Source: an uncultured Acidobacteriota bacterium (GTDB lineage: Bacteria > Acidobacteriota > Vicinamibacteria > Fen-336). Taken from it: a DNA stretch of 40,244 nucleotides. Where the stretch lies: assembly GCA_902826455.1 (NCBI GenBank), contig CADEEV010000003.1:195920-236163 (forward strand). The letters are read 5' to 3'. Made by a program: the position numbers and the translations under genes. This document shows, one piece after another, positions 25,899-29,317 of this stretch (position 1 is the first letter of the stretch; every line of letters begins with the position of its first letter). A model generated the notes under the pieces. That model saw nothing but the letters and a program-made list of their open reading frames with translations. It had not been told where the DNA came from and ran no database searches.

Positions 25899-28043
25899 AT
25901 GGCTGAAGAGAAGACCGCGGCGAGCGAGTTCAAGCCGTACGTCCCCGACTCCGCGAACGTCCCGGAGTTCACGTTCCGGGCCGTCCTGCTGGGGATGATC
26001 TTCGGCATCATCTTCGGCGCGGTCACGGTCTACGTCGGGCTGCGGGCCGGCCTCACGGTCGCGGCCTCGATCCCGATCGCCGTGCTGTCGATCAGCCTGC
26101 TGCGGGCCCTGGGCAAGGCGTCGATCCTCGAGAACAACCTGGTGCAGACGATCGGCTCCGCCGGCGAGTCGGTCGCGGGCGGCGTCATCTTCACGATGCC
26201 GGCCCTGATCTTCCTGGGCTTCGAGCTCGAGTACACGCGCATCCTGCTGCTGGCCCTGATCGGCGGCTGGCTGGGCGTGCTGTTCATGATCCCCCTGCGC
26301 CGCCAGCTGATCGTGCAGGAGCACGGGAACCTGCTGTACCCGGAAGGCTCGGCGTGCGCGGACGTGCTGATCGCCGGCGAGAAGGGCGGCTCCTTCGCGA
26401 GCCGGGTGTTCTACGGCCTGGGCCTGGGCGGCGTCTACACGCTGTTCCAGAACGAGAACGCCCTGGCGATCGTGAACCCGCTGCCCACCTACAACCCGAG
26501 CTGGATGCCGGGCGCCTCGCTGCGCGCGGCCATCACCTCGGAGTACCTGGGCGTCGGCTACATCATCGGACCGAAGATCGCCGGCGTGATCTTCGCGGGC
26601 GGCGTGTTCTCCTGGCTCGTGATGATGCCGGCCATCAAGTTCTTCGGCAGCCTGGTGCCCGGCGCCATCTACCCGAGCACGATCCCCATCGCGGCCATGG
26701 ACTCGGGCCAGCTCTGGAACTTCTACATCCGCTACATCGGCGCCGGCGCCGTGGCCATGGCGGGCCTGATCACCCTCGGCAAGACGCTGCCCACGATCCT
26801 CGGCGCGCTCAAGGCCGGCGCCGCCGACCTGCGCAAGCAGAAGGCGGGGACCGAAGCGAGCAGCGGCCGCACCGCGCGCGATCTCAAGATGACGGTCGTG
26901 CTCGGCGGCTCCATCGTGATCGTCGGGCTGATGTGGGCGATGCTGACCTTCAAGCCGGTCGAGGGCGCCCCCACCGGCATGTTCGCGAACCTGCTGGCCT
27001 CGCTGCTGGTGGTCATCTTCGGGTTCCTGTTCGTCACCGTCTCGTCCCGCCTCGTCGGCCTCATCGGGACCTCCTCGAACCCGATCTCGGGCATGGCGAT
27101 CGCGACGCTGATGGCGACGTGCGGCGTGTTCCTCGCGGTGGGCTGGACGAGCGGAGCGTACGGCGTCCTGGCCCTGATGATCGGCGGCGCCGTCTGCATC
27201 GCGGCCGCGAACGCGGGCAACACCTCGCAGGACCTGAAGACGGGCTTCCTGGTCGGCGCGACGCCGTCGGCGCAGCAGATGGGTCTCTTCCTGGGCGTGC
27301 TGACCTCGTCGTTCGTCATCGGCATCACGCTGCTCGCCGTGAACAAGGGCCTCGAGAAGTTCGTTCCCGCCGACATCACGGTCGACGCCGCCCACCTGCC
27401 CGACGGCGTGCACGTCCTCGACAACGCCTACACCCACGAAGGCAAGACCTACACGCTGCTGAACGTGCTGGGCTCGACCGTCATCCCCGAGGGCAAGTAC
27501 CTGCTGAACCCGCAATCCGGGAAGATCGAGATCCAGTGGGTGGCCGGCATCGGCAGCCAGGAGGCGCCGGCGCCGCAGGCGCGCCTGATGTCCGTGGTGA
27601 TCCGCGGCATCCTCGACCGCAAGCTGCCCTGGGGCCTCGTCTTCCTGGGCGTCTTCCTGGTAATCACCGTCGAGCTGCTCGGCGTCCGCTCGCTGAGCTT
27701 CGCGGTCGGCTCCTATCTGTCCATCGGCACGACCTGCGCGATCTTCGTGGGTGGCGTCGTGCGCTGGCTGGCCGAGCGCGGCCAGGAGGAGAAGTCCGAC
27801 GACGAGACGGGGCCCGGCGCCCTGTACGCGAGCGGCCTGATCGCCGCCGGCGGCATCATCGGCCTGCTCGGCATCGCGGTGAAGCTGCTCGAGAAGCAGG
27901 GCTGGATCCCCGAGGGCGCCATCGACATGGGCAAGCACCTGCCGGCGATCCATGCCAGCGCGGGCCTCGGCGTCGTCGCCTTCGCGCTGCTCGCGTTCTC
28001 GCTCTACCACTTCGCGCGCAAGCCTCTCGAAGGCTCGAAGTAG
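25899..28043 (+). CDS. OPT-superfamily oligopeptide transporter
   Basis: A 714-residue integral membrane transporter of the OPT/YSL superfamily (PF03169), expected to carry peptides or metal chelates by proton symport. About 14-16 hydrophobic helices are visible. Typical features are the N-terminal VPEFTFRAVLLGMIFGIIFGAVTVYVGLRAGLTV, given here as its two halves FRAVLLGMIFGII and VYVGLRAGLTVAAS, then LRRQLIVQEHGNLLYPEGSA and the late NAGNTSQDLKTGFLVGATP. Residues about 485-560 form a soluble loop before the last helices, normal for the bacterial branch. It has a leadered start with a GAGGAGCGGAG ribosome-binding site and is monocistronic. No regulator or peptidase is adjacent. Confidence 0.94.
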   Translation: MAEEKTAASEFKPYVPDSANVPEFTFRAVLLGMIFGIIFGAVTVYVGLRAGLTVAASIPIAVLSISLLRALGKASILENNLVQTIGSAGESVAGGVIFTMPALIFLGFELEYTRILLLALIGGWLGVLFMIPLRRQLIVQEHGNLLYPEGSACADVLIAGEKGGSFASRVFYGLGLGGVYTLFQNENALAIVNPLPTYNPSWMPGASLRAAITSEYLGVGYIIGPKIAGVIFAGGVFSWLVMMPAIKFFGSLVPGAIYPSTIPIAAMDSGQLWNFYIRYIGAGAVAMAGLITLGKTLPTILGALKAGAADLRKQKAGTEASSGRTARDLKMTVVLGGSIVIVGLMWAMLTFKPVEGAPTGMFANLLASLLVVIFGFLFVTVSSRLVGLIGTSSNPISGMAIATLMATCGVFLAVGWTSGAYGVLALMIGGAVCIAAANAGNTSQDLKTGFLVGATPSAQQMGLFLGVLTSSFVIGITLLAVNKGLEKFVPADITVDAAHLPDGVHVLDNAYTHEGKTYTLLNVLGSTVIPEGKYLLNPQSGKIEIQWVAGIGSQEAPAPQARLMSVVIRGILDRKLPWGLVFLGVFLVITVELLGVRSLSFAVGSYLSIGTTCAIFVGGVVRWLAERGQEEKSDDETGPGALYASGLIAAGGIIGLLGIAVKLLEKQGWIPEGAIDMGKHLPAIHASAGLGVVAFALLAFSLYHFARKPLEGSK

Positions 28044-28049
28044 CCCCCA

Positions 28050-28283
28050 GAAACACGAATGCCCTGGAGAGCTCACGCTCTCCAGGGCCGGTGCGCTGTT
28101 GGGATTCGCCAGGTCTGCTACGGCCTAGCGGGCCCCCTTCCTTTCGCGGGACCGATCCTGCGATCGGCTGGAGGCATCCAGTTGAAGCGGGTCTAGCTGT
28201 TTACGCTCGGCACGTTGACCTAAGCGTCAGCCACCTCGCGGGGTGTGAGGCAACTGTCCACTGGACCACCTCCTTTCTCGCGT
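28050..28283 (-). ncRNA. Candidate structured small RNA with an extended anti-16S 5' end
   Basis: Free-standing minus-strand unit with promoter TTGACT-N18-TACACT upstream and a hairpin terminator downstream. The RNA would start near 28283. AGAAAGGAGGUGGUCC (28278-28263) can pair along 16 nt, with one G-U, with the usual 3' tail of 16S rRNA. The same bases can pair with CAACUGGAUGCCUCC (28184-28170) through GGAGGUG-bulge-UCCAGU. Inside that closing helix are a long hairpin (28258-28247 with 28237-28226, one A-A mismatch and three G-U) and a smaller one (ACGCU 28227-28223 with AGCGU 28207-28203). Outside is CCGATC/GATCGG (28167-28162 with 28157-28152). A GTG at 28261, well spaced from GGAGG, opens a 13-codon frame (28261-28220, MDSCLTPREVADA). 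So it may be a dual-function RNA or a short-peptide mRNA. I cannot match it to a named Rfam family. Confidence 0.55.
28061..28088. terminator. Bidirectional terminator-like hairpin
   Basis: A perfect 11-bp stem, GCCCTGGAGAG (28061-28071) with CTCTCCAGGGC (28078-28088), and a 6-nt loop. On the plus strand it follows the OPT stop by 17 bp. On the minus strand it is followed by ATTCGTGTTTCT, a modest U-rich tail, and would end the RNA gene at 28050-28283. Confidence 0.6.
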
Positions 28284-28289
28284 GAATCG

Positions 28290-28319
28290 AGTGTACGGAT
28301 CGCCCCTTTCGCAAGTCAA
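28290..28319 (-). promoter_or_regulatory. Sigma-70-type promoter of the candidate small RNA
   Basis: On the minus strand TTGACT (28319-28314), an 18-bp spacer and TACACT (28295-28290). It points at the RNA element, not at any protein gene of ordinary size. Confidence 0.68.
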
Positions 28320-28481: not shown

Positions 28482-28559
28482 ATGAGACACTTGGGGCGCA
28501 ACGGGATGAACCAGGAAGCCTCGATGCGGCGGCCGCTCGGACGATCAGCCTCAGCATGA
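28482..28559 (+). CDS. Short upstream ORF (25 codons) coupled to the phosphodiesterase-like gene
   Basis: Reads MRHLGRNGMNQEASMRRPLG then RSASA and a TGA that overlaps the next ATG as ATGA. It sits wholly inside the predicted leader of the following gene, which has no Shine-Dalgarno sequence of its own, so translation of that gene could depend on this frame. The peptide is Arg-rich and has no known motif. Its own ribosome-binding site (GAGAG, too close) is weak. It could be a regulatory leader peptide or a chance frame. Confidence 0.35.
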   Translation: MRHLGRNGMNQEASMRRPLGRSASA

Positions 28560-29317
28560 AACTCAAAGCACTCGGCTGCTATGGCGGCAACATCCCCGGG
28601 CACGGGATGACTTCCTTCCTCGTCAACGACACGCTCGCGCTCGACGCCGGCTGGGTGTCGAACGCGCTGTCCCTGCGTCAGCAGGAGCGAGTGAAGGACA
28701 TCCTCATCTCGCACTCGCATCTGGATCACACCTGCACGCTGCCGTTCCTCATCGACAACAACTTCACGGCGCCGGGCTTCGCGCTGCGCATCTACTCGAT
28801 CCCCGAGGTCGTGGCGTCGATGCGCAACCACCTCTTCAACAACCAGACCTGGCCCGACTTCACGTCGCTTCCCAACGACATGACGCCGGTCCTGAAGCTG
28901 GTCGAGATCCAGCCCGAGGAGCCGTTCGTCATCAACGGCCTGAAGATCCGCGCGGTCCACGTCTCGCACAGCGTGCCGACCGCGGGCTACATCCTCGAAG
29001 ACAAGAAGGGCGCTGTCGCGTTCTCGAGCGACACGGGCCCGACCCACCGCTTCTGGGAGATCACGAACCAGACGAAGAAGCTCAAGGCCGTGATCACGGA
29101 GTGCTCGTTCCCCAACGAGCTGCGTGAGCTCGCGAAGGTCTCGGGCCACATGACGCCCTGGATGCTCGAGCTCGAGCTGAAGAAGCTCAAGAAGGACGTG
29201 CCGGTCTACATCTACGGGTGCAAGCCGAAGCACCTCGGGATCATCAAGCGCGAGCTCAAGGCGCTGAAGATCCGCAACCTGCACGTCATGGTGCAGGGCC
29301 GCACCTACAACCTCTAA
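28556..29317 (+). CDS. Metallo-beta-lactamase-fold hydrolase, class-II cyclic-nucleotide phosphodiesterase-like
   Basis: A 253-residue cytosolic MBL-fold protein. The metal motif H53-S-H55-L-D57-H58 in LISHSHLDHTCTLPFLIDN is the pattern of class-II 3',5'-cyclic-nucleotide phosphodiesterases (PF02112). Further metal or active-site positions appear in VHVSHSVPTAGY, AFSSDTGPTHRFWE and SGHMTPWML. Predicted to hydrolyse cAMP or a related cyclic nucleotide; other MBL phosphodiesterase substrates are possible. The leader of about 105 nt with an upstream ORF suggests post-transcriptional control. It converges with ftsX, with 4 bp between the stops. Confidence 0.88.
   Translation: MKLKALGCYGGNIPGHGMTSFLVNDTLALDAGWVSNALSLRQQERVKDILISHSHLDHTCTLPFLIDNNFTAPGFALRIYSIPEVVASMRNHLFNNQTWPDFTSLPNDMTPVLKLVEIQPEEPFVINGLKIRAVHVSHSVPTAGYILEDKKGAVAFSSDTGPTHRFWEITNQTKKLKAVITECSFPNELRELAKVSGHMTPWMLELELKKLKKDVPVYIYGCKPKHLGIIKRELKALKIRNLHVMVQGRTYNL

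Follow-up and report, generated by a model that had tools for sequence, protein, structure and literature searches.

The minus strand at 28319-28050 of a 40,244-nt stretch of DNA from an uncultured Acidobacteriota bacterium (the window) is, judging by its sequence, a free-standing RNA that has a promoter and a terminator of its own. It is probably (roughly 0.6) an RNA of the Ms_IGR-5 (RF02471) kind that is translated and engages ribosomes; one ribosome would be loaded on it and held at the stop codon, with refolding of the RNA. Comparison with its relatives shows, at the level of sequence conservation, selection on ribosome entry, on the reading frame and on a Shine-Dalgarno (SD) sequence at the stop codon, and not on the peptide. 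A structured RNA had been noticed here in a sequence-only reading of the window, and that observation was confirmed as real and beyond chance.

The transcript and its orthologues

The promoter, the complement of the 16S rRNA tail (SD1), the mimic of that tail, the short frame and the terminator reported earlier were all present at their positions when the sequence was re-read. The predicted transcript and its parts are listed below with the basis for each.

28290-28319, minus strand: promoter TTGACT-N18-TACACT, aligned in the orthologues as TTGAC and TA(C/A)ACT
28050-28283, minus strand: predicted transcript of about 234 nt, from the promoter and terminator, orthologues in seven other genomes and a fold z-score of -4.7
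28261-28278, minus strand: SD1, AGAAAGGAGGTGGTCCAG, complementary to the 16S rRNA tail over 18 nt with a single G-U pair, read from the sequence and near-invariant in the eight orthologues
28220-28261, minus strand: 13-codon frame GTG...TAG, MDSCLTPREVADA, selected by the frame test, its peptide not selected by pN/pS
28231-28237, minus strand: second site (SD2), GAGGTGG, 8 nt 5' of the stop codon, from the SD-to-stop distance and frame tests
28228-28235, minus strand: 5' strand of the SD2 helix, GGTGGCTG, from covariation between phyla
28203-28227, minus strand: hairpin ACGCTTAGGT...GCCGAGCGT overlapping the stop codon, from the consensus fold
28170-28181, minus strand: 16S-tail mimic CTGGATGCCTCC, the predicted pairing partner of SD1
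28108-28129, minus strand: hairpin GCTAGG...CCTGGC, from the consensus fold, with pair-keeping changes (A-U, G-U and G-C forms)
28095-28110, minus strand: conserved 3' motif GGCGAATCCCAACAGC directly ahead of the terminator, the counterpart of GCgAAUuCCccGcAG in Ms_IGR-5
28090-28098, minus strand: 3' strand of the SD2 helix, CAGC-GC-ACC, from the consensus fold and covariation
28061-28088, minus strand: terminator hairpin of 12 pairs, its T-run imperfect in the window and better in most orthologues

Besides TTGACT-N18-TACACT the region contained no promoter-like site (0.0 expected from shuffles), and the fold check suggested earlier was borne out as the RNA folded better than 200 of 200 shuffles. 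SD1 was complementary to the canonical bacterial 16S tail CUGGAUCACCUCCUUUCU, which was used because the 16S genes of these genomes are absent from their assemblies. The sequence-only reading had correctly seen this complement with its single G-U pair, and the terminator-like hairpin, while giving the former as 16 nt instead of 18 and the latter as 11 bp instead of 12 pairs. The downstream segment that it had expected to pair with SD1 is complementary to it (28181-28170), and the sole well-placed frame does have 13 codons, from the GTG at 28261 to the TAG at 28220. Both neighbouring genes, named by reading of their translations, are on the plus strand: an oligopeptide-transporter gene (25899-28043) lies downstream and is convergent with the RNA while a metallo-beta-lactamase-like gene (28556-29317) lies upstream and is divergent.

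In a search of 100 related genomes, the homologues that had been called for were found in seven further genomes of the family (E 1e-57 to 3e-26). All eight copies keep the promoter, SD1, the GTG start, the 13-codon frame, the TAG and the terminator, as well as the 16S-tail mimic as CTGGAT(A)GCCTCC or a close form and the GGCGAATCCCAACAGC motif with few changes at most. A compensatory change from CGCG/CGCG to CGCA/TGCG occurred at the 5' end of one orthologue (L013). The 16-nt complement was present once per genome in all eight carriers and nowhere else in the 14 family genomes, six of which had no recognisable copy of the RNA; being missing or unrecognised in these, the RNA is therefore dispensable. 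In 193 genomes of the class, no convincing further members outside the family were found with a covariance model (R1) built on the 5' half. The region was also considered as the remnant of a helix-turn-helix gene with readthrough of three TAG codons, an idea that was dropped because TAG ends the frame in all eight orthologues and the RNA covaries. In another orthologue (L012) an insertion has duplicated the mimic region (CCAACTAGAGCGCCTTCAACTGGATGCCTCC), giving one degenerate and one intact mimic.

Relatives in other phyla and the short frame

A motif scan with AAAGGAGGTGRTCCAGTGR over one genome per species returned at least 118 stretches, against an estimate of about 7 expected by chance. 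SD1 and the GTG were part of the search pattern; SD2, the frame of the stop codon and the pairing of SD2 with the 3' element were not searched for. A frame of 28 codons or fewer followed the GTG in 115 of the 118 among the matches listed, and the 80 titles among them named Acidobacteria, Planctomycetes, Krumholzibacteria, alpha- and betaproteobacteria, Myxococcota or Deltaproteobacteria, Nitrospirae, Actinomycetota and NC10. The occurrence of one layout across at least eight phyla suggests that the RNA is widespread and catches ribosomes instead of making a particular peptide. A search of 396 genomes of the phylum with the 18-mer followed by ATG, GTG or TTG gave eight matches and reversed-pattern controls gave none. 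All seven GTG matches were RNAs with the two-site architecture, three of which were new and came from outside the window's family, and the single ATG match was an ordinary gene. Chance, or an ordinary strong ribosome-binding site, was ruled out by the homologues, the single copy per genome and this search.

Of 115 loci among the matches listed, 55 had their downstream gene on the strand of the RNA and 51 had it on the other strand, and 85 had a strong terminator within 260 nt. With no strand preference of the neighbours and with these terminators, the RNA is therefore generally free-standing. An acidobacterial subgroup with frames of the WTCEVAEA/WTSEVAEA type (L049, L123, L132, L140, L166) has a tRNA gene in the same orientation approximately 240-360 nt downstream, a neighbourhood that is conserved in the subgroup and was not seen in the window's family. 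Viral contigs (L167-L188) carry the identical 19-mer ahead of ordinary phage genes (MKGRMKNEAGKNAMPKPAKK..., MDYSTSKAKPKKKPTPPEDMG...), where it is a natural case of near-perfect 16S complementarity serving as a ribosome-binding site.

The second site was tested in 107 unique frames from the matches listed, using 8-mers that bind the anti-Shine-Dalgarno sequence at less than -6 kcal/mol and codon-shuffled frames as controls. Strong SD-like 8-mers peaked 6-10 nt 5' of the stop codon in these frames. Among the matches listed, SD2 was 7-9 nt from the stop in 80% against 9% of codon-shuffled frames, and the median spacing was 8 nt although frame length ranged from 6 to 28 codons. The first stop fell 3-12 nt 3' of the strongest SD-like site in 83% for the GTG frame and in 0-1% for the other two frames among the matches listed. 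Placement of the stop is thus selected in the GTG frame alone, which argues for translation since the frame matters only when it is translated. TAG was the commonest stop of the short frames (62 of 109), and a G followed the stop in 60 of 109 (L049-L166, among the matches listed).

The peptide itself behaved differently from the frame. The pN/pS ratio was 0.70 in the window's family, where no purifying selection on the amino-acid sequence was detected, 0.5-0.9 in most other clades and 1.33 in Brevundimonas, with lower values in two small sets. Peptides of different phyla had little in common besides the residues encoded by the SD2 codons GAG GTG.

Pairing of the two Shine-Dalgarno sites

Plain z-scores for the pairing of SD1 or SD2 with all downstream sequence were uninformative in this GC-rich DNA, so a permutation test on each RNA's own partner was used. 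In 41 representatives, the SD2 region paired with its own 3' element at -17.6 kcal/mol compared to -14.86 +/- 0.45 kcal/mol with permuted partners, and none of 10,000 permutations did as well. Both strands of the SD2 helix change between relatives: GGTGATTGT/GCAGTCACC (L141), GGTGATGA/TCATCACC (L137), GGTGGCGT/ACGCCACC (L080), GGTGGCGG/CCGCCACC (L138), GGTGGTGGC/GCTACCACC (L104), GGTACCAGCG/CGCTGGTcACC (L060) and GGTGGCTGA/TCAGTcCACC (L049), where the consensus fold of the window gives GGTGGCTG/CAGCgcACC. A motif close to AATCCCA is located 5' of the 3' strand of this helix in several clades. The SD2 region of the window (28251-28228) has a further potential partner in the beginning of the frame (CAGTTGCCTC with GAGGTGGCTG); this partner is family-specific and is predicted to compete with the 3' element.

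Pairing of SD1 with the mimic was predicted at a probability of 0.96-1.0 in the plain ensemble of all eight orthologues. When a ribosome was taken to occupy the start region, the SD2 helix was predicted at 0.48-0.86 in five of the eight, and with the stop region set as occupied SD1 was still predicted to be closed by the mimic (0.85-1.0). The SD1-mimic and SD2 helices cross in the plain fold and would therefore be alternatives or a pseudoknot. Closure of SD1 by a downstream mimic was strong in the window's family and in one deltaproteobacterial group, and elsewhere weak on average (mean z -0.5). The earlier suggestion of a switch that hides or shows its Shine-Dalgarno sequence is thus backed, at the level of folding and sequence, by the predicted closure of SD1 and the compensatory changes around SD2.

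Known families, alternative readings and proposed function

No Rfam family reached its gathering score in the window, and the comparison with Rfam proposed earlier led instead to a diverged relation. At a permissive threshold, Ms_IGR-5 aligned to the window at 18.8 bits (E 0.039 in 551 nt) against a gathering score of 45, over model positions 1-184 of 184, collinear and on the transcript strand, in the window and in four orthologues. When the 193 class genomes were scanned blind and genome-wide with RF02471, four orthologues were recovered at full length (25-30 bits, E 5.9e-5 to 2.0e-3), together with one further match that was apparently spurious. Two-site relatives passed the family cut-off in Acidobacteria (L049, 47.7 bits), Proteobacteria (L076, 49.1 and L106, 47.5 bits) and NC10 (L094, 50.3 bits), as did L141 (72.3 bits). 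Because of the full-length alignment, the genome-wide matches and these intermediates above the cut-off, the window RNA is, on sequence evidence, a diverged relative of Ms_IGR-5 that is formally below the family threshold. Ms_IGR-5, an actinobacterial small RNA with no function in its Rfam description, shares with the window RNA SD1, GAGGUGGCUG, a 3' motif of the GCGAAUUCC type and the terminator. Its consensus includes UUG..UAG (MIDLWTCEVAAR) with SD2 9 nt 5' of the stop, and a GGUGgCUGC that is complementary to GCAGuCACC as in the SD2 helix, a stretch left unpaired in the printed Rfam structure. Ms_IGR-5 is transcribed in Streptomyces (PMC8079986, PMC8780764) and in M. smegmatis (PMC10454040), and ribosome footprints have been recorded on its homologues in M. 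abscessus and M. smegmatis (PMC4974804).

The Caulobacter small RNA CC2171 (RF01867) shares the 5' GAAAGGAGGUGAUCCAGUG with the window RNA and aligned at 21.8 bits (E 0.015) against a gathering score of 75, with 102 middle model positions skipped. Only its 5' part aligns, its SD2 is the weaker GCGAGGUCC and its 3' half is unalignable, while a Brevundimonas relative with the two-site layout (L062) scored above the CC2171 cut-off. Caulobacter non-coding RNAs were described as mostly untranslated, which counts against the translated reading, in a study that does not name CC2171 (PMC4117421). No description of the two-site architecture or of a joining of Ms_IGR-5 and CC2171 was found in the open-access literature.

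Other known systems were compared. Toxic small RNAs carrying Shine-Dalgarno sequences have reportedly been described by Kimelman and colleagues. The toxic small RNA family of Betaproteobacteria (RF02278) is likewise free-standing. An identity with the toxic RNAs found no support, and none of the 35 relatives scanned whole had an RF02278 match at the gathering score. RF02278 RNAs are 57-92 nt and come from Burkholderia (PMC4603805). A tmRNA, which would be expected to have a tRNA-like domain and to match RF00023, was rejected: the window had no RF00023 match, and in one relative (L132) a separate tmRNA lies approximately 3 kb from the two-site RNA. Dual-function small RNAs also contain a translated short frame; here, however, the frame and two Shine-Dalgarno sites are conserved and the peptide is not.

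In an ordinary base-pairing small RNA the C-rich segments (the CCUCC mimic and AAUCCCA..CACC) would act on the Shine-Dalgarno sequences of other mRNAs, with the frame either incidental or serving as an input for control. This reading would suit a free-standing RNA that has its own terminator and segments complementary to such sites. It is nevertheless unlikely, since strong selection on the frame and on the spacing of SD2 to the stop would be needless for such an RNA and its 3' strand covaries with its own SD2 region. The same selection for translation, seen in the spacing of the GTG, the frame and the placement of SD2, makes it improbable that the RNA is an untranslated decoy that blocks 30S subunits through the pairing of SD1 alone with the 16S tail, although 18 nt of complementarity is well above an ordinary site.

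The conserved micropeptide mRNA that the sequence-only reading had offered (MDSCLTPREVADA in the window) would explain a frame kept in all eight orthologues and in 83% of relatives among the matches listed, and the lower pN/pS of some clades (0.19-0.54). This reading is unsupported and has little probability because the peptide drifts, at a pN/pS of approximately 0.7 in the window's family and near neutrality in most clades, and differs almost wholly between phyla except at the residues dictated by SD2 (GAG GTG). Control of a neighbouring gene in cis, as its leader or attenuator, is very improbable despite the tRNA gene that follows at 240-360 nt in the same orientation in one acidobacterial subgroup, as the next gene is convergent in the window and, among the matches listed, neighbours are divided between the strands (55 same, 51 opposite in 115 loci) and strong terminators are common (85 of 115). 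The earlier proposal of a ribosome-contacting small RNA held up, given the conserved 16S complement, the selected frame, SD2 at the stop in more than 100 relatives and the footprints on Ms_IGR-5 homologues (PMC4974804).

For the free-standing, translated RNA of the Ms_IGR-5 kind, which is the reading preferred here, the following course is proposed. A 30S subunit would open SD1 and start at the GTG, and the ribosome would run 13 codons and unzip the SD2 helix. At the UAG its anti-Shine-Dalgarno sequence would pair with SD2 so that release is slowed, while SD1 behind the ribosome may close on the mimic and keep a second ribosome off. The function would lie in the act of translation with the peptide irrelevant, and one RNA would capture one ribosome, either sensing or buffering free ribosomes or exposing the C-rich 3' segments to other targets. 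Ribosome pausing, the capture of a single ribosome and the physiological use are what we infer from these features.

We more tentatively propose, at somewhat less than even odds, a single superfamily in at least eight phyla that acts by ribosome position alone, through single loading, parking at the stop and a refolding that would sense or buffer free ribosomes, with Ms_IGR-5 and CC2171 as two separately catalogued pieces of it. Such a superfamily would link at least two orphan Rfam families and give Ms_IGR-5 a revised structure and mechanism. Selection on the features of translation but not on the peptide, across distant phyla, points to a function of translation itself, and these RNAs would offer a natural setting in which to study the long-standing question of the role of Shine-Dalgarno pairing at termination.
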